The notes under the pieces are model-generated. The model did no database searches and was not told the origin of the DNA. It saw only the letters and a list, made by a program, of their open reading frames with translations. This document shows positions 2,305 to 46,487 of a stretch of DNA of 47,388 nt, piece after piece (positions within the stretch are counted from its first letter, which is position 1; each line of letters begins with the position of its first letter). The stretch is from a virus. The stretch is taken from positions 1 through 47,388 of the IMG/VR virus record IMGVR_UViG_3300022659_000304; one strand, given 5' to 3'. A program made the translations under genes and the position numbers.

Positions 2305-2862
2305 ATGAACAGTACTCATGGGGGTTTTCGAGCCGGGGCAGGTCGAAAAAAGTCTGAAGAGACTAAAGTTATTCGAGTGCCTGAATCTAAAATTCTTGAT
2401 ATCAAAGAATACTTAAAATCCCTTAAAAAAGAAAATGAAATTACTGATATCCGTCAGTTCGATCCAGTCACTAAAATAGAAATACCATTGGTCACTGAAC
2501 GCGTTCAGGCTGGCTTCCCCTCACCGGCTCAGGATTATATCGATAAGAAACTCGATCTTAATGACTTCCTGATCAATAATGCCAATGCGACTTTCATTGT
2601 ACGAGCAAATTCCCTTTCGATGCTCAATGCTGGAATTGATATCAATGATGCTCTTATCGTAGATCGCAGCATTGAGGCGCAGCATAGAGATATTGTGATT
2701 GCCTGTGTAGATAATGAGTTTACTGTTAAAAGACTAATTATTGATGCGAAAGGTTGCTGGTTGAAAGCTGAGAATGAGGAGTATCCAGACATTCATCCTC
2801 AAGAAGGCCAGCAGTTTGAAATCTGGGGTGTAGTCACAAATGTAATCAAGAAATTCAGATGA
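2305..2862 (+). CDS. umuD: UmuD-like S24 protease, Pol V accessory subunit
   Basis: Self-cleaving partner of UmuC in SOS translesion synthesis. The start is ATG 2305, ten bases after AAGGAG, giving 185 residues; a TTG 30 bases upstream has no ribosome binding site. The N-terminus ([12 protein letters not shown]) is a basic extension seen in Acinetobacter-type UmuD. The S24 core has an Ala69-Gly70 cleavage site (VQAGF), nucleophile Ser105 (NSLSM) and Lys142 (FTVKRL), so self-cleavage should work. The stop overlaps the umuC start (ATGA), which indicates translational coupling. An SOS-type dyad overlaps its leader. It lacks the longer N-terminal region of the UmuDAb regulator, so a mutagenesis role is more likely than a repressor role. 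Confidence 0.9.
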
Positions 2863-4154
2863 GCTATAACAACGAAATATATGCGCTCATTGATGTAAAT
2901 AATTGCTATGTAAGCTGTGAGCGCCTGTTCAACCCCAAACTTAAAGATGTGCCAGTCATTGTTCTCTCAAATAATGACGGCTGCGCAGTTGCGCGTTCTC
3001 AAGAAGCAAAAGATCTTGGTATTAAGATGGGTGTTCCCCTATTCCAGATCCGGGATATTGTCGAAAAACATAATGTACAGGTACTTTCGAGTAACTATGC
3101 TTTGTATGCTGAAATGTCTCAACGTTTCCATTCGATTCTGGCTGATTACGTGGCGCCAGGTGAACAGGAAGTTTATTCGATTGATGAGTGCTTTTTAAAG
3201 CTTACTGCCTATTCTGAAAATTATGACCTGGTTGAATATGCGCAAAATATGCGACAGCGGATCTTGCAGTGGATCGGATTACCGGTTTGTGTCGGTATTG
3301 GGCGAAGTAAGACTGAAGCCAAGTTGGCTAATCATATGGCCAAAAAGGCTAAACGCTTCAATGGGGTTTGTGATCTAGTTTCTATGGATCCTAAACATCG
3401 TGATTATTTTTCGAGTTTGATTGATGTTTCCGAAGTCTGGGGAGTTGGTCGTCAGCATAGTAAAAAACTAAAAGGCTTAGGTGTTAATACTGTTCTTGAT
3501 TTAGTCAGGTCTAATCCACATCAAATGGGAAAACTATTTTCTGTGGTAATGCAGAGGACTGTTATGGAACTGCAAGGGATTTCATGTATCGAACTTGAGC
3601 AGGCTGCGCCAACCAAGAAGCAAATCATTTCATCACGCTCATTTGGCGCACGGGTAACCGATATTGAATCATTATCTGAGGCAATGAGTGATTACCTACA
3701 GAATGCTGTTAAGCGGTTAAGAGAAGATGAATCTCTTTGTGGTTGTGTGATTGCTTTTGCCCAATCCAATCCTTTTGATAAGAACAGGCCTTTCTATAAC
3801 AAGTCGATCAATATCGGATTTGCTGAGCCGACTGACTGTGCTGCTGTTATGAACCGGGCTGTAATGAAGCGAATGAATGAGCTGTTTCAAGAAGGAATCG
3901 AGTTTAAGAAATGTGGTGTGATATTGACCGCAATCGAGCCAAAATCGACATACATATACGACCTTCTATCTGATAGTACTCAAATAGAGAAAAATGAGAA
4001 ACTTCAATCTGCCCTTGAGCAGGTTAAGGTGAGATTTGGAGATAAGAAAATAGCAATTGGCCCATGCAAAATGCATGGTCGCGCATGGGCAATGGCCAGA
4101 CAAAACCTGACTCAAAACTATTTTAGTTGGGAAGGGATTCTGAGGATTAATTAA
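2859..4154 (+). CDS. umuC: UmuC, Y-family DNA polymerase V catalytic subunit
   Basis: Error-prone translesion polymerase that works with cleaved UmuD and RecA. The 431 residues match the family length. The first catalytic aspartate is in [18 protein letters not shown] near the N-terminus and the paired acidic motif is YSIDECFLK near residue 110. A helix-hairpin-helix region ([16 protein letters not shown]) and a little-finger domain follow. The start overlaps the umuD stop. Carriage of umuDC by a prophage can raise the host's damage-induced mutation rate. The operon ends at the hairpin at 4186. Confidence 0.96.
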
Positions 4155-13822: not shown

Positions 13823-16800
13823 GTTGATTTCGCCTGTATTTTTAATTGATTCACAAGTTCATTCATTAAAGATTCCTGTCCAGCAGGCCCGCTAAATTTC
13901 ATCTGCTTACCATTGAAGTCAAAGTTATAGGTAACTTCCTTACTTGGTTGTCCTGTATCTCTAACTGAAGGTGCAGAAGGAATAGACGGCGCATAGTCAC
14001 TCAGACTGGAACCAGTTGAAGCTACATTGATAGAACGAAGCAGCTCATTGATCTTGTTGGTTCCGTGTTGAGTGGTCAGACCATTCGCTGCTGCCCGATC
14101 AAATTCAGCATTAATCAGTGCTTTCATAGCTGGATTACCATCTTTACCCAGTCCTTGAGCCTTGGCATCTCGATCAGCCGCCAGAGCTTTGGACCATATA
14201 TCACCAGCCAGTTTTTTAGCATCCTTATCGCTATAGCCTTTACTTTTCAGCTCGGAAAGCACTTCATCTCTGGTGTAGGAGTCATAGCCATAAATACCCT
14301 TGCTTAATGCATCACCTTGACGCTTCATTTCCTTATTGAAGTCACCTTTGGCCTTGTTGACTGCATCAGCCCAGGCTTCGGTAGAAGATTTGGCTTCTTC
14401 ACGTGCGATCTGGCCAGCATGACGATATCCATCACCAATGCCGCGTGCTGAATCTCTGACGCGATGATTAGATTTTTCCCATTCGTCATTTGATTTGACA
14501 GCAGCTTTGCCAGTTTCATCTACTTGAACCTCCAGATCTAAAGCTGAGGCTTGAGATCTGGTAAAGCCATCTACGATACCGCCATTGGCCTGAATAGCCA
14601 CATCAGCGTATTTCCTAAATGCCTGCTGAAGCTGATCAGTTGAAGCTTGACCACTCCTAAGCAAAACCTCGTATGCCGCCTTGTATTCACTAGCCATCAA
14701 CTTGGCTTCATCGCGAGACCGTAAACCAAATACCGAGAATGCTTCATTTACTGAATTGACGCCTGCAGTCATCTCGTCAAGTTGGCGGTTGATATTGAAC
14801 GCTTGGACTTCCACTTGCTGCAAAAGCCCATTAGCTACAGTCTCACCAAGCTCATTTTTAAGGCTGTTGATTTGATTCCGGATAGCACCAAGTTGCTGAA
14901 TAGTCTCAGCTCCGTTGACTGCCTTGCTGATTGATTGGTTTAGTGCAAATGCGGTATCAAGACCTTGGCGCTTTAACTCATCAAGACTGCCAATAATGGT
15001 TTGAATATCATTTATTAGCGATCTTGATGCTGCTGATCCTTTTCCTTGCAACTGCTCAAAACTATATCCGGTACGCTCCACGGCCAAGATCATTGCTTGT
15101 TCAGCAATGAGTGCCATTTTTGCGCTTCAAAGAAGTCCCAGAAAAAGCAGCCTTTGCATTTGCCGAGAACACCACAAGATCTTCAGTTGCCATTGCAGCT
15201 TTAAGTGATACCTTGAGTTGTTCGGCAGTTATCTTTCCCTGCTGCTCAAGTGCTACCAAAGCTGTTATTGAATCATTAATGCCTTTTGTGGAATCAAATA
15301 CCAAAGCATCTTGAAGTTTTTCAAGTGCATCAGCTGCTGACTCCCCCTTTTTAATTAACTCATCAAACGCTGTAATAAGCTTTTTCGATTCTTCTGTTAA
15401 TTGGTAGGTCTTATCTCTAGCCTTTTCTGCAGCTGCTGCTTGTTCTGCCTTAATTTCTGCTGCCACTTTGGCTTGAGTTGCTTCAAGAAGCTGCTGCTTT
15501 TCTAATTTCTCAATAGCTTCGCCGTAGCCCATGGCTTTTGCGGCAGCTTCGCCCATCCACTCACCGAGCGGAGTAAGCATACCGACAACAGCAACACCCA
15601 TCACACCAAGCGATGTAATAGCAATACCCAATGTTCCTAGACGGCCCACCAAGCCCATTAGGCTTGTACCAGCAGAAGCAGTAGCTGTTGCTGTTGATGT
15701 TGCTAATTGCCCTTTAGCCACTGCCGTGGATTTGGTTGCGTTAGCATTGGCTATTTGCGCCTGTGTATTAGCTACAACTGAAGTGGTTTCTTGAGTAATG
15801 GCTAATGATGCAGCCTTAACGCTATTCGCTTTATCCAAGAACATCAGGCCGATGTTTAAGGCCTTATATGCTACAAATGCCTGACCAGCCAACATTAACG
15901 TAGAGACAATCGTATCCAAGTTTTCAGCAACAAACTTAATGGCTTCCGCTACTTTTGCGCTTGCCCCTGTTGCAGCATCTGCTTCACCAATATAAACCGT
16001 CCACGCGGTCTTAAGATTTTCAATGGATGCGCCGATTGTTGTCGGAAATTTGGCGAATTCAGCGCTAATTGCTTCGCTTTGACTTAATAAAGCCTTGGTG
16101 ACCACATCAGTTGTAAGCTTCCCCTCACCCGCCATTTCTCGCAATTTACCGGTAGTTACATCAAGCCCATCAGCCAGTGCTTGAGCCAATCGTGGTGATT
16201 GCTCCATCATGGAGTTGAATTCATCACCGCGAAGCACACCAGAACCTAATGCTTGGTTAAGTTGGGTAATCGCTGCTTCATTGGATGCAGCCGATCCACC
16301 CCCTACCTGAATGGCCTTGTTAATTGTTTCAGTTAATGCTAATGCCTGCTCTTGAGGCCATTTCATCTCCTGACCGATCTTGGTTAGTCGAGAATAGAGA
16401 TCACCAGTTGCAGTTAGATTGGAGTTTGTTGCAATAGCAACATTTTTAACATCATCCATGGCCTTTTGAAGGTTGCCATGTTCGCCAATTGCAATTGACA
16501 GGCGGCCAGACAGATTCTTATATTCATCAGCAGTCTGAGCAATCTCCATTGCGGTAGTGCCGATGCCAAGCGCTGCCAAGGCTCCAGTTAAAGCATTGAA
16601 GCCCGTTTTTAATCCTTGTAACTCCCCTGATACGCCTTTCGACGATTGCTCAGTTTGTTGTAGTTCTTGTGAAGTTGCTTCTAATTCTTTATCAAGTTGC
16701 TTTACTTGTTGGGCGGTTTCTTGAGATTGATTGCCGAGCTGATCTACTTCTTTTGTAGCACTATTGGCATCACTTACTAGATTGGCTGAGCCATCCTTGA

Positions 16801-16909
16801 GTGCCGCAAATGCATCCTTTGCTGCTTTTTCCGACTGATGCATATTGGAAACAAAGGCTTTTGTCTCAGCATCCATCACCAGCTTAAATGTTAAATTTTT
16901 ACCAGACAT
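13819..16909 (-). CDS. tape measure protein, frameshifted as read
   Basis: Sets tail length and is expelled during DNA injection. Two overlapping frames (16909-15101 and 15117-13819) form one protein of about 1030 residues. The join is near 15117-15121: SGTSLKRKNGTHC-stop in one frame and MALIAEQAM in the next. Adding one base at two short runs gives SLEAQKMALIAEQ. The N-terminal half has long coiled coils (Q/E-rich, 40-95), the tape-measure core (EYKNLSGRLS, GDLYSRLTKIGQ, SMMEQSPRLAQALADGL) and hydrophobic segments around 330-450. The C-terminal half is helical. The tail chaperone gene lies upstream. Confidence 0.88.
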
Positions 16910-27981: not shown

Positions 27982-28162
27982 TGGTGGTATCCTTGCTGTA
28001 AACACGCTTTGCATTCAGCCAAAGCTTGAAATATTCATCACGAATATCAAAGTAACGGCCTAATTTCTTACGCTGATATATTGAGAATTCATCGAAAGCC
28101 AGTCCACAATATTTGGTGCAAAACTCCTCAAACTCATCATATAACGCCTGAATATCTGCCAT
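27959..28162 (-). CDS. small head-module protein, 67 aa
   Basis: Unrecognised helical protein (MADIQALYDEFEEFCTKYCG, RKKLGRYFDIRDEYFKLW) between portal and gpF genes. ATG 28162 overlaps the portal TGA (TGATG), so translation is coupled. Its end overlaps the gpF start by 23 bases. Possibly a head assembly factor. Confidence 0.65.
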   Translation of the reverse strand: MADIQALYDEFEEFCTKYCGLAFDEFSIYQRKKLGRYFDIRDEYFKLWLNAKRVYSKDTTNATSHIP

Positions 28163-29619
28163 CACTTACCCCCACTTGCAGTCACATATCCCAACACATC
28201 CGCAGCATACAAAGCTTGGTCCAGATTGGCCGTGAACTGCGTCTGAGTTGCACCAGGTATTAATTGCATCAGGTGATAAGCCAGAGCTTCAGGACTATCA
28301 GATTTGAATATCAATTCTTTGACCTGATCCGGTTTCAGTAGCTGCAATTCATCTTGACCATCAGTTAATTCTTCAACTTCCTGCTGCTCTGGTGAGAGCT
28401 TGTTTGCAGATGCCTTAAAGTTAAATGCCTGGCGAGGTAATGCAGAGAATTGATTGAAGCTGGTAGGAACCTGCTCATTCAAATCCCCTTCCTGTAGACC
28501 ATACTCGCGAACAAAATATTCTTTAGACAGATTTGCACCCGCATTCTTTAAATGGACATCACGCTCTGCTTGGTCCTTATTCAGTGGTTTTGGTTTCTCA
28601 CCAAGCATCACTTCATAATCCCCCCAACCGTTTAAAGCGCATAGAGCATTGATCACAGCCTGTAAAGTTGGTGTGACAAGCCTAATATCAGATTTAAGCT
28701 TATCCATTCGTACATTTTCATGCACTTGACCAAGACTGTAGCTTCCCTTCCCATCAGTCCCGCTGGTAAGTGTCTGCCCTAGTACAACTTTCTGGATCTG
28801 ACGAATCAGCTGATTATTAAATGCCTCAAACGCTGCCCCTGCTGAACCGTTTGTTCCTGGTGCGGAAAGAATCTGAACATCATCATCTGCATCAATCGAC
28901 AATACGCTTTGAGCATGAGCAGTTAACAAGGCTTTGCTCATATCATCAGTTTCAGTATCTTTGCACTTACCCAGTAAGATTGGTGTTCCAAAACGTTCGA
29001 GGAATTTCGCCCAGAATTTGAAGCCATTCTGCTTAAAGAAGAATAACCAATACAGCGTGGCTAATAGCGCTTTACCATATGGCTGTTCGTATGTGGCTTT
29101 ACGGCGTGTTAAGAAGAATTTGAATGCTTGATCTACCTCATGCTCTGCATTGTTTCCATCCTGACGATAGATTAGCCGACCATCATTCTTAGGCTCAAAC
29201 CATTGCATCGGTTTTTCACCAATCCATTGCAAACCAATATAACCTTCCGACTTTAGCTCATATACAGCTTCCTGAACCGAGTACCCGAAGAACAGTGCAC
29301 TCATGGCAGCAGTCGCAATTTCATGGAACCATTCTTTCAGGATGAGATTCAGCTTTTCCGCTTCATCCGTATCATTTGGTTCAATTCGCAATGGCGTTGC
29401 TAAAAGTGCATCAATCCGTGTTTCAACTACTTGTGCAATCTCGTCATCATCAAGCAGTACACGCAATCTGTGGCGTGTAATTCCAGCTTTGCGCAGCACT
29501 TCATCAGTATCTGGTTGCTTGCCAAAGTTCACCAGAAACTGAGTGACTGCTTCTTGAGTGTATAAATTGCCGTAAGACAAAGCCTTCTTTGACGCTTTGT
29601 CCTTTTTAGACTTTGCCAT
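28162..29619 (-). CDS. DUF935 portal protein (Mu gp29-like)
   Basis: Dodecameric portal at the DNA entry vertex. The 485 residues show the DUF935 pattern: AGITRHRLRVLLDDDEIAQVVETR, LFFGYSVQEAVYE, LERFGTPILLGKC and QKVVLGQTLTSGTDGKGSY (the family's GQTxTT loop). The N-terminus is Lys-rich (MAKSKKDKASKKAL). It follows TerL and is coupled to the 67-residue gene behind it. The TerL frame as read runs 91 bases into it, probably because of a frameshift. Confidence 0.92.
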   Translation of the reverse strand: MAKSKKDKASKKALSYGNLYTQEAVTQFLVNFGKQPDTDEVLRKAGITRHRLRVLLDDDEIAQVVETRIDALLATPLRIEPNDTDEAEKLNLILKEWFHEIATAAMSALFFGYSVQEAVYELKSEGYIGLQWIGEKPMQWFEPKNDGRLIYRQDGNNAEHEVDQAFKFFLTRRKATYEQPYGKALLATLYWLFFFKQNGFKFWAKFLERFGTPILLGKCKDTETDDMSKALLTAHAQSVLSIDADDDVQILSAPGTNGSAGAAFEAFNNQLIRQIQKVVLGQTLTSGTDGKGSYSLGQVHENVRMDKLKSDIRLVTPTLQAVINALCALNGWGDYEVMLGEKPKPLNKDQAERDVHLKNAGANLSKEYFVREYGLQEGDLNEQVPTSFNQFSALPRQAFNFKASANKLSPEQQEVEELTDGQDELQLLKPDQVKELIFKSDSPEALAYHLMQLIPGATQTQFTANLDQALYAADVLGYVTASGGK

Positions 29620-33899: not shown

Positions 33900-34112
33900 T
33901 TATTAAAATCTTGGTAAGACGGCCCTCTTCGCGGGGCCAGACACTACTCACAATCACACACACCTAACATGCACGGTCTGCTTTACTTGCTTTCAATCCT
34001 CTTTAGGTCGGGGCGCTACTCCCTAGTCTGGATTCCCGAAGGAAGTTTACTCGATGGCATGTTCCACTGGTCAGCACTCCAGTAGGCTGAGGTCGCCTTT
34101 TTACAGGCAATA
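33900..34112 (-). ncRNA. structured GC-rich non-coding region
   Basis: A stretch in the 690-bp gap 33651-34343 with clearly higher GC than its surroundings and no convincing gene. On the minus strand it contains UUCC-UUCG-GGAA (a stable cUUCGg loop, near 34035-34046), GGCCC-x-GGGCC (near 33930-33948) and the long-range pair AGTAG/CTACT with GGCG/CGCC closing. Only very short reading frames are present. It may be a structured leader or small RNA, or part of a packaging site: GGCGACCTC occurs at its upstream end. Confidence 0.4.
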
Positions 34113-38962: not shown

Positions 38963-39610
38963 ATGGAAACTTTAGGTACTCGGCTTAAAGCCTTGAGAAA
39001 AAATAAAAAAATAACTCAACAACAAGTAGCTGATGCAATTGGTGTTTCTAAAACATCCGTAATCTATTGGGAGAAAGATGAAAACCTTCCAAAGCACGAT
39101 AGTTTAATGGCTTTAGCCAGAGTTTTAGGGGTTACTTCTGATTACCTTTTAAATGGTAAAGGGGGCTCTTCCTTTGACAATAATATTAGCATTCCCCTCC
39201 CACTTGCTGGTCGCCTTGTCCCTGTTATTTCATGGGTTCAAGCAGGCAGCTGGACTTCTGTCGAATCCGTTCCTGCAGGTACACAATTTGATGAATGGCT
39301 TCCGCCAAATCCAAAGTGTGGAAAGAATGGCTATGGGTTGGAAGTCGTGGGCGAATCAATGCTCCCAGACTTTCGCCCAGGCGATAAGATTTATGTAAAT
39401 CCTGATTTTCAGCCAGATGAATTGAAAACTGGCGATCTGGTGATTATGTCTTGCGAAGGTGATGCAGAAGCAACTTTCAAAAAGTTGATTGTTGAAAGTG
39501 GCAATATGTATTTACAACCTTTAAATCCTGATTGGCCGGAAAAGACTATGCCATTGATCCTGGGTTGCAAGCTTGTTGGTAAGGTCGTTGGATTATATCG
39601 GGATGTTTGA
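38963..39610 (+). CDS. cI: CI-like repressor (XRE + S24 peptidase)
   Basis: Maintains lysogeny by binding the operators at 38878-38942 and 44162. The 215 residues have an XRE helix-turn-helix (about 5-60: TQQQVADAIGVSKTSVIYWE), a linker, a cleavage site Ala94-Gly95 (VQAGSW) and a LexA-type protease dyad Ser132 (GESML) and Lys173 (TFKKL). RecA-dependent self-cleavage, and therefore SOS induction, is expected. The gene is followed by a hairpin at 39633. Confidence 0.95.
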   Translation: METLGTRLKALRKNKKITQQQVADAIGVSKTSVIYWEKDENLPKHDSLMALARVLGVTSDYLLNGKGGSSFDNNISIPLPLAGRLVPVISWVQAGSWTSVESVPAGTQFDEWLPPNPKCGKNGYGLEVVGESMLPDFRPGDKIYVNPDFQPDELKTGDLVIMSCEGDAEATFKKLIVESGNMYLQPLNPDWPEKTMPLILGCKLVGKVVGLYRDV

Positions 39611-39705: not shown

Positions 39706-40008
39706 ATGATTGCAACACTTAATAAATCCAAAACTGCGCTGACAATTAATCGTCAAGAGTTTAAGTTGGCATTAGGCAAAATCGGTGAAGGGATTGATAA
39801 GCAAATAGCTTCGCTTAAGAAGGCCAAGCAAAGCTATGACGCTGCTGAAATAGCACGTGAGGTCATTAGTGAGGCAAATATCTTTGAAGCTATTATTGAA
39901 GGCTTTAACGAAGCAGAAGAGACGAATTTAAAGCTGACTGACATAACCAATCTTGAGGTCGCACAAGGATGGATAGATGAGTTTTTAGAAAAGTATTCTG
40001 CGCTATAA
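39706..40008 (+). CDS. hypothetical helical protein, 100 aa
   Basis: Starts at ATG 39706 behind GAAGGA. The product (MIATLNKSKTALTINRQEFK, then AKQSYDAAEIAREVISEANIFEAIIEGFNEAEE) is helical and acidic at the end. It lies between two copies of the same terminator, so it is its own unit between cI and the acetyltransferase gene. Not recognised. Confidence 0.6.
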   Translation: MIATLNKSKTALTINRQEFKLALGKIGEGIDKQIASLKKAKQSYDAAEIAREVISEANIFEAIIEGFNEAEETNLKLTDITNLEVAQGWIDEFLEKYSAL

Positions 40009-40041: not shown

Positions 40042-40060
40042 AAGCCGCTATATGCGGCTT
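40042..40060 (+). terminator. second copy of the post-cI terminator
   Basis: AAGCCGC-TATAT-GCGGCTT, identical to 39633-39651. It follows the helical protein gene. Confidence 0.75.
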
Positions 40061-40115
40061 GGGTGTTAGCTGCGAACACGACGCAGCCTTTATAATGGAT
40101 TGTATGGAGGTATAT

Positions 40116-41166
40116 ATGGGGTTTCAAATTAAAAAGTTCAGAGATATTGATTTAAATGATAAATTCTTTGACTCTCTAAAAGCCGATTATGCAGAATTTT
40201 CGGATTGGTTTAATAAGAAATCAGAAAATAAAGCATTAATACATTTTGATGAAAATAATATTTTGAACGGCTTTTTGTATTTAAAACCTGAAGAAGAAGA
40301 GCTTAATATTGATCCACCGCAAGGTAAATTAAAAAGACTTAAGGTCGGAACAATGAAAATTGATGCTCATGGAACTAGGTTGGGTGAGAGGTTTATTAAG
40401 AAGATATTTGATTATGCTTTCATGAAAAGTTGAAGAAATATATGTAACTATTTTGATAAGCATGATTCCTTAATACAATTATTTAAAAAATACGATTTTA
40501 ATCTAATAGGATTAAAGCACTCTAATAATGGTAGTGAAAATGTTTTAATTAGAAAATTTTCTGGCGAAAATGTAATATATAATTACCCCTTTATTACCCA
40601 TGACAACAACTCAAATATTTATTTTTTGGCAGTAAAACCAAAATATCACTCTAGACTTTTCCCGGATTCAATTCTAAAAACTGAAGATAGCACAATAGCA
40701 AAAGATATTTCATACACGAATAGTATTCATAAAATATATATTGCTGCAATGAATGGTATGGAAAACATTAAAAAAATGATATTATTTTAATTTATAGAAC
40801 TGCAGAAGACGGTAAATCAGCATATTATAATTCCGTTATCACATCACTATGTGTAATTGAAGAATATAAAAATATTAATGAATTTGATACATATAATGAA
40901 TTTGAAGATTACTGCAAAAATTATAGTATTTTCGATCAAAAGGAATTGGATACAATATATAAATTAAAAAATATAAACACGTAATTAGAATGACGTATAA
41001 TATTGCATTAAATAAACGAATTAATAGAGCTAAGTTAATTGATTTAGGAATCATGTCCAATGAAAAGGGTTTTTACTCTGGTTTTGGTTCTATCAATTAT
41101 GATCAGTTAGTTAGTGTTCTTCAAGAAGGCAAAGTAAATGAAGGTCTTATTATCAATCAAACCTGA
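40116..41166 (+). pseudogene. GNAT acetyltransferase fused to a PUA/EVE-like domain, five frameshifts as read
   Basis: GGAGG precedes ATG 40116. Adding one base at each of T3 40418-40420, A4 40425-40428, T4 40451-40454, A7 40770-40776 and A3 40975-40977 yields a 351-residue protein ending at TGA 41164-41166 (1051+5 bases = 352 codons). The N-terminal part is a GNAT fold with the acetyl-CoA loop region GTRLGERFIKKIFDYAFHE then VEEIYVTIFDKHDSLIQLF and KKYDFNLIGLK. The C-terminal part (IYFLAVKPKYHSRLFPDSIL, NIKKNDIILIYRT, VITSLCVIEEY) is a PUA-like nucleic-acid-binding domain. It overlaps the ASCH gene, which suggests joint function. The first three repairs within 40 bases restore the original frame. 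Confidence 0.7.
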
Positions 41167-41508
41167 ATACGCTGATAAAATACTTTCAGGTGAAAAGAGA
41201 TTTGAATTTAGAAAATCTATCTTTAAAAAAGAAGGTATTCGTACTGTCATTATTTATGCAACCATGCCCGTTGGTAAAGTGATTGGTGAGTTTAATATTA
41301 AGAATATTTTATCAGACAAACCCGAATTCATATGGGATAGAACTCGCGACCTATCGGGCATAACTAAGAGTTTTTTTGATTCGTACTTTTATGAAAGGTC
41401 CAGAGCATATGCTATAGAGGTGGAATCTGTAAAAAATACGATACACCCATCTGTTTATCTGATATCAAAACAGGACTTAAAGCACCACAGTCTTTTACCT
41501 ACATTTAA
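41138..41508 (+). CDS. ASCH/PUA-like domain protein, frameshifted near the end
   Basis: Starts MKVLLSIKPEYADKILSGEK, the ASCH signature, with RFEFRKSIF following; the fold binds RNA or modified bases, and one family member (YqfB) hydrolyses N4-acetylcytidine. As read the frame runs on through a terminator. Adding one A at 41479-41481 gives DLKAPQSFTYI and a stop at 41508 (123 residues), which is the usual end of this type. It overlaps the GNAT gene by 29 bases. Confidence 0.75.
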
Positions 41509-41530
41509 TTTCACAAAAAACTCCATCCAA

Positions 41531-41547
41531 CCCACCCCAGCGGTGGG
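41531..41547 (+). terminator. terminator after ASCH gene
   Basis: CCCACC-CCAGC-GGTGGG followed by TTTTCTTTT. A near copy follows the MliC-like gene at 42515. Confidence 0.85.
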
Positions 41548-41604
41548 TTTTCTTTTATGAAATTCTATTTATAATCCAAAGTCCAATAACAATAAAATCA
41601 AACT

Positions 41605-41939
41605 ATGAAAACAATAATTTTGACCATCCTACTCTTGTCTTTAGCTTTCACTGGTTGTGAGAAGCAACTTAGTGAAGATATAGATCCAATCAAAACCACA
41701 ACAGCTCTTGAGAACTCAGATAATATTCTTAGTAAATACATAGAAAAGTTAGACTCAGAATTCACCACACAAGATGTTCGGATTAAAATTTTATGCAGAG
41801 ACTACCCACGCGAGTATGAAAAAACTATATGCCTAACTTGTTGAAGCTATCACCCGGTGAATACTCTGAAGCTGCACTTTTGGCTGATATGGATTTGGTT
41901 TTGGATCACTACAAAGAGAAAGATGCTATTCAGTGCTAA
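41605..41939 (+). CDS. lysogenic lipoprotein, frameshifted as read
   Basis: Starts MKTIILTILLLSLAFTGCEK with a lipobox FTGC. As read it stops at 41844. Adding one A at the A6 run 41819-41824 gives YEKNYMPNLLKLSPGEYSEAA and then LLADMDLVLDHYKEKDAIQC, with a stop at 41939 (111 residues). The C-terminal LLKLSPGEY and cysteine pair recall small prophage lipoproteins common in Acinetobacter. It is probably made in the lysogen and anchored in the outer membrane. Function unknown. Confidence 0.7.
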
Positions 41940-42145: not shown

Positions 42146-42516
42146 ATGAAATATCTGTTAGGCGCAGCATTGTTAGGACTAACGATTACTGGCTGTACTT
42201 CAAATCCAAAAACGAAGTGGCGCAAGAAAAAGTTGTGAGCAATACTCCAGCTGAAACTCAGGTAATTAATTTTACTGGTCCAATGGATCTTACAGTTGAA
42301 TTGAAATCTTCAGATAATTTTGAAACCGCAGAAATGACAGATAATTCTGGCAAGATTTATCACCTTAAACGAGCTATTTCAGGAAGTGGTATGCGTTTGG
42401 CCAATGATGACGGCGTTTCAATTCACTTCAAAGCTGGTGAAGGTATTGTAGAGTTTATGAAAGACAAACCTATCAGTATTACTGAATACAAAAATAAGAT
42501 TATTGTTGCAGGATAA
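42146..42516 (+). CDS. MliC-like lysozyme-inhibitor lipoprotein, frameshifted as read
   Basis: Starts MKYLLGAALLGLTITGCTSN, a signal peptide with lipobox ITGC, then breaks at the A5 run 42208-42212. One extra A joins it to EVAQEKVVSNTPAETQV and the rest (123 residues). The mature domain (AEMTDNSGKIYHLKRAISGS, GMRLANDDGVSIHFKAGEGIV) matches the MliC/PliC pattern of membrane-bound inhibitors of C-type lysozyme. Such a protein would protect the lysogen from host-organism lysozyme. GAAAGG precedes the start. It ends at the 42515 terminator. Confidence 0.75.
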
Positions 42517-42535
42517 CCCACCCCAGTGGTGGGTT
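42515..42535 (+). terminator. terminator after MliC-like gene
   Basis: AACCCACC-CCAGT-GGTGGGTT followed by ATCTTTTTATT; related in sequence to 41531-41547. Confidence 0.85.
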
Positions 42536-42720
42536 ATCTTTTTATTATATGAAGTAATATTCCTATTTATTAGCCGATGGAATTTCTAAAAATTTTAAGT
42601 AAAGTGAGTTAAATTTTTGAATAATTAGTGAGCTAATCAGTTTAAAATTATAATATATGACGCTGTAGTCTAAAAATTGTTTTTTCACATCTCTCTTAGT
42701 ACAAACATCGGACTAACTTA

Positions 42721-43668
42721 ATGAATAATATTAACTTTAAGAATTTCAAAGAGGCTGGCCAAGCCATTTTAAAATTCTTATCTCAACGATTTGGATTTAA
42801 GTTATGGATGATTACCCGTACCGAAGGTGATGACTGGATCGTGTTACTAAGTGAAGATAATGGCTATAACGTTAAGCCAGGACAAGTATTTCGATGGGCA
42901 GATTCTTTCTGCTCACACATGGTACAAAATAATGCGCCCCGCATTGCCCCCTATTCACCTGATATTCAAGTTTACGTAGACGCACCTATAAATCACTTAG
43001 TCCCAATTAAAGCCTATATCGGCCAACCTCTGTATAAAGAAGATGGGTCCCTTTTTGGCACTCTCTGTGCAATCGATCCTGAACCTCAATCTAAAAATCT
43101 GGTCGAGGAAGCTCCATTATTTGAGCTGCTAGCACAAGTGCTTAGCTATAATATTCAAGCTGAATTAAAAGCCGCTGAGTACATACGTAAAGCTGAACGG
43201 TTTGAAATGGAGGCATTGTCCGATCCCATGACTGGCCTTTTTAACCGTCGTGCTTGGGACCAGTTAATTGAATTAGAAGAAAAGCGCTGTAAGCGATATG
43301 GTCACCCTGTTGCTATTCTTATGATTGATCTTAATGACCTCAAGATCACCAATGATACTTTGGGGCATGCTGCAGGTGATGAACTCATTCAAAGAATGGC
43401 TTTAACCCTCAAAAACAATGTACGCAATAATGATATTGTCGCTCGTTTAGGTGGTGATGAGTTTGCTGTACTCAGTATTGAAACCAACCGAGAAAATGCG
43501 GATAAACTTGCAACCAGAATTCAAACTGCTATTGCAAAAGCTGGCATTAGTGCTGCAATTGGTCTTGCAATGCGAAATTCAAAATACGGTCTATCAGCAG
43601 CTATCATAGAGGCAGATGAAAAAATGTATCAGGATAAAGTCTTAAGCAAATCACCTGAGACTAATTAA
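42721..43668 (+). CDS. GAF-GGDEF diguanylate cyclase
   Basis: Makes cyclic di-GMP from two GTP. The 315 residues have a GAF sensor domain (about 10-150; IGQPLYKEDGSLFGTLCAIDP) and a GGDEF domain (165-308). The active site is intact: DPMTGLFNRRAW at 168-179, NDTLGHAAGDELI and GGDEF at 244-248. An inhibitory I-site RxxD (R235, D238) lies five residues upstream, so product feedback is expected. There are no membrane segments. A TATAAT -10 candidate lies at 42649-42654. Its presence among lysogenic genes suggests the prophage may alter host biofilm or motility. Confidence 0.92.
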   Translation: MNNINFKNFKEAGQAILKFLSQRFGFKLWMITRTEGDDWIVLLSEDNGYNVKPGQVFRWADSFCSHMVQNNAPRIAPYSPDIQVYVDAPINHLVPIKAYIGQPLYKEDGSLFGTLCAIDPEPQSKNLVEEAPLFELLAQVLSYNIQAELKAAEYIRKAERFEMEALSDPMTGLFNRRAWDQLIELEEKRCKRYGHPVAILMIDLNDLKITNDTLGHAAGDELIQRMALTLKNNVRNNDIVARLGGDEFAVLSIETNRENADKLATRIQTAIAKAGISAAIGLAMRNSKYGLSAAIIEADEKMYQDKVLSKSPETN

Positions 43669-43715
43669 TAAAAAACGCGAACCCGACGCGGCTCTTGGAT
43701 CGGGTGGAGAAAAAT

Positions 43716-43889
43716 ATGCCTTCAATTGAAGAAAAACGCTTAGCTATTGAGATGGCTGATAAAATCATACAAACACGATTGTCCCATCAATTAACTCAAA
43801 ATATGAAGGATAATATTCGATCCGGTGAAGTTGAGTACTGGAAAGAAATTTATACTGAATGCTTGAAGATAAGTGGTTCAGATAACTAA
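43716..43889 (+). CDS. hypothetical protein, 57 aa
   Basis: Starts at ATG 43716 behind GGTGGAG (MPSIEEKRLAIEMADKII). Helical (MKDNIRSGEVEYWKEIYTECL). Convergent with the next gene and overlapping it by 4 bases. It may be co-transcribed with the GGDEF gene. Not recognised. Confidence 0.6.
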   Translation: MPSIEEKRLAIEMADKIIQTRLSHQLTQNMKDNIRSGEVEYWKEIYTECLKISGSDN

Positions 43890-44082: not shown

Positions 44083-44103
44083 AACCCATCCCTGTGATGG
44101 GTT
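44083..44103. terminator. terminator before second CI-controlled operon
   Basis: AACCCATC-CCTGT-GATGGGTT followed by TTCTTTT on the plus side. Confidence 0.75.
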
Positions 44104-44150
44104 TTCTTTTGTCTATTAAAACACAAAAGTAATTTTTATTACCATTTGTA

Positions 44151-44253: not shown

Positions 44254-44499
44254 ATGAACAAAAATCCTATTCAAAGCAACCTGCCGGAGTTCGGCCAGTC
44301 GCGCCAAACATCTGAGCGCTTGTACCAACATCCAGAACCCAAACAATCTGTAGCAAAGGAAATCACTAAAAACTTAGCTGCGTGGATGGTTCTATTTTCA
44401 GTATTTTTTGGCCTTTCAGTAATGATTCTTCATGCAGCCGAAAAACAATCTGCTTATCAAGCGGAATCAATTGTTAAGGCAGTTGGGGGTGCTAAATGA
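44254..44499 (+). CDS. single-pass membrane protein, 81 aa
   Basis: Starts at ATG 44254 (MNKNPIQSNLPEFGQSRQ) behind GAGAT; an in-frame earlier start lies in the leader hairpin. One transmembrane helix (NLAAWMVLFSVFFGLSVMIL) at about 45-65. First gene of the recombination operon, overlapping the exonuclease gene by 4 bases. Function unknown. Confidence 0.6.
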   Translation: MNKNPIQSNLPEFGQSRQTSERLYQHPEPKQSVAKEITKNLAAWMVLFSVFFGLSVMILHAAEKQSAYQAESIVKAVGGAK

Positions 44500-45476
44500 A
44501 TACTCAAGTAAATTTACAAAGCATCGAAGATGCTCGTCAAGAATGGTTGCAATCACGCCGTCTTGGTATTGGTGGTTCTGATGTAGCGGCAATCTTAGGC
44601 TTGAGCAAATACAGCTCTCCCTATCAATTGTGGCTGGATAAGACAGGTCGCTCTGAACTGGAAGACAGCACCAGCGAACCGGCTTACTGGGGCAACATGC
44701 TGGAAGATATCGTAGCCAAGGAATATGCCAAACGTAACGGCGTAAAGGTGCAACGCGTTAATGCAACGATCGCCCACCCTGAACATGACTGGATGCGTGC
44801 CAATATTGATCGCGCCATTATCAACCCTGAAATCGCCGGCAATGTCCGTATTAAAGATGGCAAGTTGACCACCGACCGCATCTTAGAATGCAAGACAGCG
44901 AATCAGTACCTAGCGAAGTTATGGGGAGATGAGCAATCTGAACAGGTGCCAGATTACTACCTGACGCAAGTGCAGTGGTACATGGGTATTACAGGCGCTT
45001 CGATGTGTGGCTTGGGTGTGCTGATCGGTGGTCAGAAGTTCCGTAGCTATCAGGTCGCATTCGATCCTGAGCTGTTTGAAATGCTTACAGATGAATGCTC
45101 AAAGTTCTGGAATGAGCATGTTCAGGCTGACGTCCCACCAGCTCCAACCACGTTTGATGATGTTCTGCATCGCTGGTCTACTCATAATCCTGATCAGGCA
45201 CTACAGGCAGATGACGACCTTGCTCAGCTGGTCGCTGAATATAAGGACCTAAACGCCACGATCAAAGAAGCCAGTGGTGAGTTAGATACCCTCAAGCTAC
45301 AAATCTGCACCCGCATGGAAGATGCGGAGATGATTATTGCTGAGGAAAAGCGTCTAGCAACATTCAAATACCAAGAACGCAACACCCTAGATAGCAAAGC
45401 ACTGAAAGCCGCTCACCCGGATATTTACGAACAATTTGTGAAGACTTCAAGCACTCGCGTGCTGCGCATTAATTAA
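44496..45476 (+). CDS. YqaJ-family phage recombination exonuclease
   Basis: Double-strand-end exonuclease that works with RecT. The 326 residues carry RRLGIGGSDVAAILGLSKY at the start, YWGNMLEDIVAKEYAKRNG (Glu), ANIDRAII (Asp) and ILECKTAN (Glu-x-Lys), the PD-(D/E)xK catalytic set. The C-terminal part is helical. It overlaps the membrane protein gene and lies 18 bases upstream of recT, the normal pair. Confidence 0.92.
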   Translation: MNTQVNLQSIEDARQEWLQSRRLGIGGSDVAAILGLSKYSSPYQLWLDKTGRSELEDSTSEPAYWGNMLEDIVAKEYAKRNGVKVQRVNATIAHPEHDWMRANIDRAIINPEIAGNVRIKDGKLTTDRILECKTANQYLAKLWGDEQSEQVPDYYLTQVQWYMGITGASMCGLGVLIGGQKFRSYQVAFDPELFEMLTDECSKFWNEHVQADVPPAPTTFDDVLHRWSTHNPDQALQADDDLAQLVAEYKDLNATIKEASGELDTLKLQICTRMEDAEMIIAEEKRLATFKYQERNTLDSKALKAAHPDIYEQFVKTSSTRVLRIN

Positions 45477-45494: not shown

Positions 45495-46487
45495 ATGAAC
45501 TCAATTGTTAAAACAGGCCAAAACGCTGCCGTTAATTTCTTAACTCCGAACAACCTGCAAGAAGCAATGCAGATTGCCGGCATCCTTGCCGAGTCTGACA
45601 TTGTGCCGAAGGACTACCAGCGCAAGCCTGGGAACATTCTTGTTGCTATGCAATGGGGTGCTGAAATTGGCTTGCAGCCATTACAGGCAATGCAAAACAT
45701 TGCGGTGATTAATGGTCGCCCCTCTATCTGGGGCGATGCAATGCTTGCCCTTGTTCGTGGATCTGGCCTACTCGACTTCATCCGCGAGGAAATTTCCGAA
45801 GATGGTCAAAAAGCCACTGTAACTGTGAAGCGGAAAAATGAAGAACCAGTTGCTTCAGTATTCACAATGGAGGATGCGAAAAAGGCAGGTCTATCAGGTA
45901 AACAGGGGCCTTGGACGCAGTATCCAAAACGCATGTTAAAGCTACGTGCGCGTTCCTATGCCCTGCGTGACGTGTTCCCGGATGTGCTCAAGGGCATGGC
46001 AATTGCTGAGGAGGAAAAAGATAAGGAAATTGATATTACTCCCACTGCACCAGAAACCAGTACAACGAAGGCAAATAGCGGATCGTCATCGCTGAAAGCG
46101 CGCATGGCCAAAAAGAAAGATGCTGTCGAGTCGGTGGCTACAGAAATTGACCTAACCCCGTACTACCAACGTATTGATAACGCCACTTCTCTTGAGGAAC
46201 TCGATCAGATCGGTGCTGACATTGCTGAGTTGAATTTAGGTGAGCCAGCTAAATCTGAAATCGGCGAAGTGTTTAAAGCCAAGCGTAAAGAGCTAAAAGC
46301 TGCCCAGGCTTTTCCCGATGAATCAATTCAGTCAGTAATTAACGAGATCAGCAACACGACCGATCTGGAATCACTTAACGCAATTATGGCTTCACGCTTT
46401 GAGCCCTTCACGGCTCAGATGACTGAGGAGCAGATCAGTCAGATTAATTCAGCGTATGAAGCACAAGAAGCGGCGCTAACGCCATGA
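45495..46487 (+). CDS. recT: RecT-family annealing protein
   Basis: Single-strand annealing protein paired with the exonuclease upstream. The 330 residues contain AMQWGAEIGLQPLQAMQNIAVINGRPS and MLKLRARSYALRDVFPDVLKG, the RecT/Bet signatures. A long variable C-terminus follows (SGSSSLKARMAKKKD, then helices). It overlaps the next small gene by 4 bases. Confidence 0.93.
   Translation: MNSIVKTGQNAAVNFLTPNNLQEAMQIAGILAESDIVPKDYQRKPGNILVAMQWGAEIGLQPLQAMQNIAVINGRPSIWGDAMLALVRGSGLLDFIREEISEDGQKATVTVKRKNEEPVASVFTMEDAKKAGLSGKQGPWTQYPKRMLKLRARSYALRDVFPDVLKGMAIAEEEKDKEIDITPTAPETSTTKANSGSSSLKARMAKKKDAVESVATEIDLTPYYQRIDNATSLEELDQIGADIAELNLGEPAKSEIGEVFKAKRKELKAAQAFPDESIQSVINEISNTTDLESLNAIMASRFEPFTAQMTEEQISQINSAYEAQEAALTP

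Follow-up and report, generated by a model that had tools for sequence, protein, structure and literature searches.

A diguanylate cyclase gene of the GAF-GGDEF type lies between the cI-orf2 genes and exo/recT of an Acinetobacter prophage. The comparisons described below make it probable that the enzyme is competent and that its gene is an exchangeable lysogenic-conversion cassette (a 'moron') of Acinetobacter prophages.

Setting of the cyclase gene in the prophage

The stretch of DNA that we analysed, called the window hereafter, is an IMG/VR virus record of 47,388 bases. The preliminary description had assigned the gene to a prophage, and this is confirmed by the presence of an integrase, a Mu-type portal, a tape measure protein, an S24-type repressor, a YqaJ exonuclease and RecT. 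The features of the window are:

1-1173, integrase, left end of the window
2859-4154, + strand, UmuC-type (IMS) polymerase gene, near the integrase
15101-16909, tape measure protein
28162-29619, Mu-type portal
33921-34086, - strand, Pseudomonadales-1 sRNA (Rfam RF03046, 102.7 bits), within the prophage
38963..39610, + strand, cI-type repressor (HTH and S24 peptidase; profile match)
39706..40008, + strand, orf2 (PHROG 15679, 100 aa), conserved beside cI
40059-41560, + strand, candidate defence pair PDC-M11A/PDC-M11B adjoining cI (PADLOC)
41605-41844, + strand, lipoprotein-like cargo gene, reading frame disturbed in the window
42146..42516, + strand, lipoprotein-like cargo gene (PHROG 6360), directly 5' of the cyclase gene, frameshifted relative to intact relatives
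42721..43668, + strand, GAF-GGDEF diguanylate cyclase gene, 315 aa (profile matches, invariant active site, dN/dS)
43716..43889, + strand, small ORF preceded by a pseudoknot leader
44496..45476, + strand, YqaJ/RecE-like exonuclease gene, exo (profile and PHROG matches)
45495..46487, + strand, RecT-like annealing protein (profile and PHROG matches)

The PDC-M11A gene is frameshifted and spans only the first third of its family model. At least 186 viral stretches contain a member of the orf2 family, which stays beside cI genes of differing types. The PHROG 6360 lipoprotein gene stands immediately before the cyclase gene in most carriers and was also found without it. No tandem repeats were found in the cargo region of the window. 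Likewise, no c-di-GMP riboswitch was detected in the window, where the Pseudomonadales-1 sRNA was the sole Rfam match.

Domains and active site of the cyclase

The following parts of the cyclase gene were recognized:

42754..43146, + strand, GAF domain, residues 12-142 (PF01590; full-length match to Dcsbis, PDB 4zmu)
43216..43638, + strand, GGDEF catalytic domain, residues 166-306 (PF00990; AlphaFold2 pLDDT)
43423..43434, + strand, RxxD motif (RNND), possible product-inhibition site
43450..43464, + strand, GGDEF signature

The GGDEF domain matched Pfam PF00990 with 120 bits (E 9e-35), above the curated cut-off of 23.8, and TIGR00254 matched as well (E 7e-39). The GAF domain scored 21.6 bits against PF01590 (E 3.5e-4), slightly below the cut-off of 22.4; we kept this assignment because the best full-length structural match was a GAF-GGDEF enzyme, Dcsbis. 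The motifs read R235-N-N-D238-IVARL-G244GDEF248, with RxxD exactly five residues ahead of GGDEF. The A-site and the residues contacting metal and guanine are intact: the metal-binding D203, K208, the guanine-contacting N211 and D220, and the GGDEF signature were all identical in 98 of 98 full-length homologues. RxxD was kept in 95 of these 98, the exceptions being three related copies. In L116, L118 and L119, RxxD was changed to S..H with the active site retained. The preliminary description, which had reported a complete cyclase, a complete RxxD motif and a GAF sensor, agrees with these results on all three points.

Pairwise dN/dS (NG86) in the prophage clade of the cyclase was 0.116 (0.09 for GAF and 0.11 for GGDEF), and by this measure the gene is seen to be under strong purifying selection. 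In contrast, neighbouring cargo in the same window is frameshifted, namely the PDC-M11A gene and the lipoprotein genes. The cyclase appears catalytically intact, and synthesis of c-di-GMP is predicted.

Comparison with Dcsbis

In the AlphaFold2 model of the cyclase, the GGDEF part reached a pLDDT of about 85-95 over most of its length, while the GAF part was poor (30-70). With Foldseek, the model matched 4zmu at E 1.4e-15 over 312 columns, and the TM-score was only 0.45 because of the poorly modelled GAF part. Dcsbis (PA2771 of Pseudomonas aeruginosa) resembles the prophage cyclase in domain order, in length and in having RxxD together with a GGDEF-type A-site. It differs in being chromosomal, in carrying GGEEF instead of GGDEF, and in sequence (about 25% identity). 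Dcsbis is a proven, highly active cyclase whose full activity requires its GAF domain, and it affects motility and not biofilm (PMC4937426). In the Dcsbis dimer, a GAF loop from the partner covers the I-site and blocks feedback inhibition (PMC4937426). This loop (120-125, in a chain numbering shifted by four) aligned free of gaps and at equal length with residues 106-111 of the prophage cyclase, K106-L111 (KEDGSL), and E107, D108 and G109 of the latter are almost invariant across the 98 homologues. Blocking of the I-site is demonstrated in Dcsbis and possible in the prophage cyclase. Since the Dcsbis loop prevents inhibition and an EDG loop aligns with it here, the intact RxxD need not imply tight feedback by the product.

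Relatives of the cyclase

All of the nearest relatives come from Acinetobacter; they comprise Acinetobacter genomes and 21 viral contigs, the majority of the latter at 84-98% identity. At an E value below 1e-40, 65 of the 175 Acinetobacter genomes contained the family, and a chromosomal copy is often already present in hosts. A tree of 98 proteins was built by a quick search under a simple model, so that its deep branches are not to be pressed, and neighbourhood clustering was added. The window cyclase falls within a well-supported, separate prophage clade. Five members of this clade (L027, L084, L085, L089, L098) have a non-phage neighbourhood, with an arsenite transporter and a transglutaminase alongside. 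Three chromosomal groups with conserved neighbours were recognized at about 60% (A), mostly 55-59% (B) and 51-55% (C) identity. Groups A and C each form one side of a branch (support 93 and 100), and B is not cleanly one clade. Group A adjoins tsaD. In group B, tfpB, encoding a type IV pilus extension ATPase, is the divergent neighbour in 16 of 16 loci (L115, L122 and L124 included), directly adjacent in nine of them with gaps of about 95-300 bases; the gene linked to pili in this way is a homologue at 57-59% identity, and the prophage gene itself lies elsewhere. We do not claim that TfpB binds c-di-GMP, since its PF05157 match also covers non-binding N-terminal domains; no classical c-di-GMP binding motif was seen in TfpB by eye. 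A further group, at 55-57% identity, is carried next to toxin-antitoxin genes by small mobilizable MOBQ plasmids of Acinetobacter (6-16 kb).

Among 50,697 phage records, 159 matched the cyclase, most of them over the GGDEF part only. The earlier statement that few prophages carry a complete cyclase holds for their number, but the kind was already known: cyclases are encoded by Yuavirus and Bordetella phages (PMC8471281) and by a Klebsiella phage. Phage-encoded cyclases are uncommon but known, and the prophage cyclase adds one more. The Yuavirus/Vojvodinavirus enzymes (e.g. of Bordetella phage LK3) are likewise GGDEF enzymes of temperate phages. However, they belong to other phage groups and match the GGDEF half only, at about 30-34% identity, with no GAF match. 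Lysogens of LK3, which bears a cyclase gene, form hyper-biofilms, the cause of which is not proven (PMC8471281). PHROG 14602 is the same phage protein family (full-length match, E 1e-114); it is listed as of unknown function, and no study of it was found in our literature search. Cyclases of other mobile elements (Acinetobacter plasmids, SXT/R391, the Vibrio island VPII) are also comparable, those of the Acinetobacter plasmids being of the same family, but their carriers are plasmids or ICEs, and for them a role in conjugation was proposed instead. The Vibrio island enzyme Dgc137 changes biofilm and motility (PMC10672970), and a GGDEF gene on a mobile element was noted in A. baumannii (PMC13243610).

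Edges of the cassette

For the comparison of cargo, we anchored loci on orf2 beside cI and retained the 40 viral loci with sufficient sequence. The cyclase gene was present in 12 of them, always on the same strand and ahead of exo/recT. The cI genes of the carriers were alike in some cases and only 30-47% alike in others. One locus without the cyclase, L181, has identical cI and orf2 genes, and an overlapping stretch, L265, covers the interval between the lipoprotein gene and the far side. When L181/L265 was aligned with the window, the match ended at 42542, inside the AACCCACC...GGTGGGTT terminator, and restarted at 44083 inside the next terminator, which sits past a small extra ORF, between the cyclase gene and exo. 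The two edges are:

42510..42545, + strand, terminator hairpin, left edge of the cassette and breakpoint of its presence or absence
44083..44110, + strand, terminator hairpin, far side of the gap in cassette-free relatives

Of the 39 unique alignment breakpoints in the loci compared, 19 fell within 15 bases of a + strand terminator, where 2.5 were expected. Because gene ends coincide with terminators, this excess partly reflects the exchange of whole genes; we regard terminators as the seams of cassettes, without proposing them as the driver of exchange. The region held more terminator-like sites than chance would give (10 versus 3.4, sd 2.0). From these alignments, we consider the cyclase gene to be optional cargo of accessory occurrence with its edges at terminators. 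As is described for morons, it occurs in some prophages and is lacking in others that are otherwise similar, and it has a terminator of its own.

Expression of the cyclase gene

The preliminary description had placed the cyclase next to cI and had concluded that it is probably expressed in the lysogen. The cI gene ends at 39610, 3.1 kb upstream of the cyclase gene, and other cargo genes and four predicted terminators (39633, 41529, 42028, 42510) intervene, which weakens the argument drawn from proximity. For the same reason, co-transcription with cI is unlikely and the cyclase gene would need its own promoter. A promoter scan of the cargo region, including the sequence upstream of the cyclase, gave 25 promoter-like sites against 24.0 expected, none of them better than chance. 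The 85 bases before the cyclase start were retained even in relatives that had lost the preceding 70 bases, and by this alignment such a promoter would probably lie within the following block:

42636..42720, + strand, upstream block, candidate site of the cyclase promoter

The ribosome-binding site of the cyclase gene is weak, as judged by eye.

An RNA leader downstream of the cyclase gene

The sequence that follows the cyclase stop codon reads CGCG-AACCCGA-CGCG...GATCGGGTGGAG..ATG and contains:

43676..43709, + strand, putative H-type pseudoknot leader (CGCG-AACCCGA-CGCG ... TCGGG then GGAG) of the gene after the cyclase

The consensus of the leader is ACTGCG-AACCCGA-CGCAGT, then 6-13 bases, TCGGG and a Shine-Dalgarno sequence. 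The hairpin fits an H-type pseudoknot, since CCCGA in the loop can pair with TCGGG. A second copy in the window (40069-40110, + strand) has the loop variant AACACGA with a partly compensated partner, and copies occur in many other loci (e.g. L167, L214, L228, L251). We tested 24 leader hairpins from loci that had not been fetched by the leader pattern, all on the + strand of their locus. A perfect TCGGG partner followed in 18 of them, compared with 0.9 for shuffled loops (never more than 5 of 24 over 500 shuffles). One pair of stem 1, whose 5' base the search pattern left free, was T-A 44 times and C-G 43 times, with three T-G wobbles and only five mismatches. Across 26 aligned copies, 95% of the cells paired versus 30-35% with slid partners, a percentage that is inflated for stem 2 because copies without stem 2 were mostly omitted. 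The covariation score of this alignment was reached by no shuffle, and the leader has one covarying stem pair.

The leader, which is common among Acinetobacter prophages, was found in at least 120 viral stretches and in 35 of 173 Acinetobacter genomes. Of 299 genomes drawn family-wide, 22 had it; each of these had been part of the earlier draw for the genus, no newly drawn genome had a match, and the leader is apparently specific to Acinetobacter. The genes downstream of it form 35 clusters, a few of which resemble chance matches in unrelated contigs, and represent about 30 unrelated gene families. Rfam gave no match at the leader position, either in the window or in the five loci tested, and no description was found in a literature search. 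The leader is apparently previously undescribed, and its novelty may exceed that of the cyclase. Altogether, we tentatively propose, at chances somewhat short of even, that the cyclase gene is one cassette of a modular array, with terminator seams upstream and, downstream, the pseudoknot leader whose stem 2 abuts the Shine-Dalgarno sequence; prophages may swap cargo there and control the translation of diverse cargo by a common RNA switch.

Discussion

If the cyclase is a lysogenic-conversion gene, it would be transcribed in the lysogen from its own promoter, and the protein would dimerise via GAF and the linker helix. It would turn GTP into c-di-GMP under the gating of a GAF ligand, perhaps with weak product inhibition. 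The raised and perhaps local c-di-GMP might then lower type IV pilus activity and increase matrix, so that surface growth of the lysogen could be favoured and the adsorption of rival phages that depend on pili reduced. The step from the cyclase to pili or to phage exclusion is one that we infer. This reading through pili and matrix draws on the tfpB neighbourhood of the group B homologues, on the hyper-biofilm of Bordetella lysogens, on phages that block pilus motors (PMC11656802) and on A. baumannii, where raised c-di-GMP lowered pil expression, abolished twitching and increased matrix and biofilm (PMC13243610). Raised c-di-GMP also lowered the virulence of A. baumannii in the wax-moth model (PMC13243610). 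A possible effect on virulence had been put forward earlier, and a gain is not the direction to be expected. The effect of the prophage cyclase may be small, since hosts often have their own chromosomal copy of the family.

Other explanations were considered. The cyclase could be expressed mainly in the lytic phase or at induction, with the exo/recT operon, and alter the infected cell and not the lysogen. The gene shares its strand with exo and recT, exo follows 0.8 kb downstream, and the terminators should halt the cI transcript before it reaches the cyclase. However, the terminators just before the cyclase gene and between it and exo stand against this, as does its position among optional cargo, where genes expressed in lysogens are typically found; we consider lytic expression unlikely. 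Somewhat less probable still is a part in phage defence or superinfection exclusion, in which c-di-GMP would be the alarm that alerts a partner effector. The cargo array does hold the candidate defence pair PDC-M11A/B, and comparable cargo of other prophages includes a gene of the 'beta'/PD-Lambda-2 type. Yet the cyclase is of a standard GAF-GGDEF type and has no fixed partner, its only frequent neighbour being the lipoprotein gene that also occurs without it. It matched no PADLOC model either, and a PADLOC-type defence gene was rejected for that reason. As for a passenger recently taken from the host chromosome and neutral or decaying, relatives do occupy conserved chromosomal positions and the adjoining cargo genes are frameshifted, but the low dN/dS, the full set of active-site residues and the well-supported prophage clade already speak against it, and we find it very improbable.

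As a lysogenic-conversion cassette, the cyclase gene can be compared between natural prophage pairs with and without it. The seams that the cassettes share, and the pseudoknot leader in particular, could account for cargo exchange and joint control in these prophages. Acinetobacter relies on c-di-GMP for its persistence, its pili and its biofilms, and the prophage would bring in a tunable source of this signal of its own.
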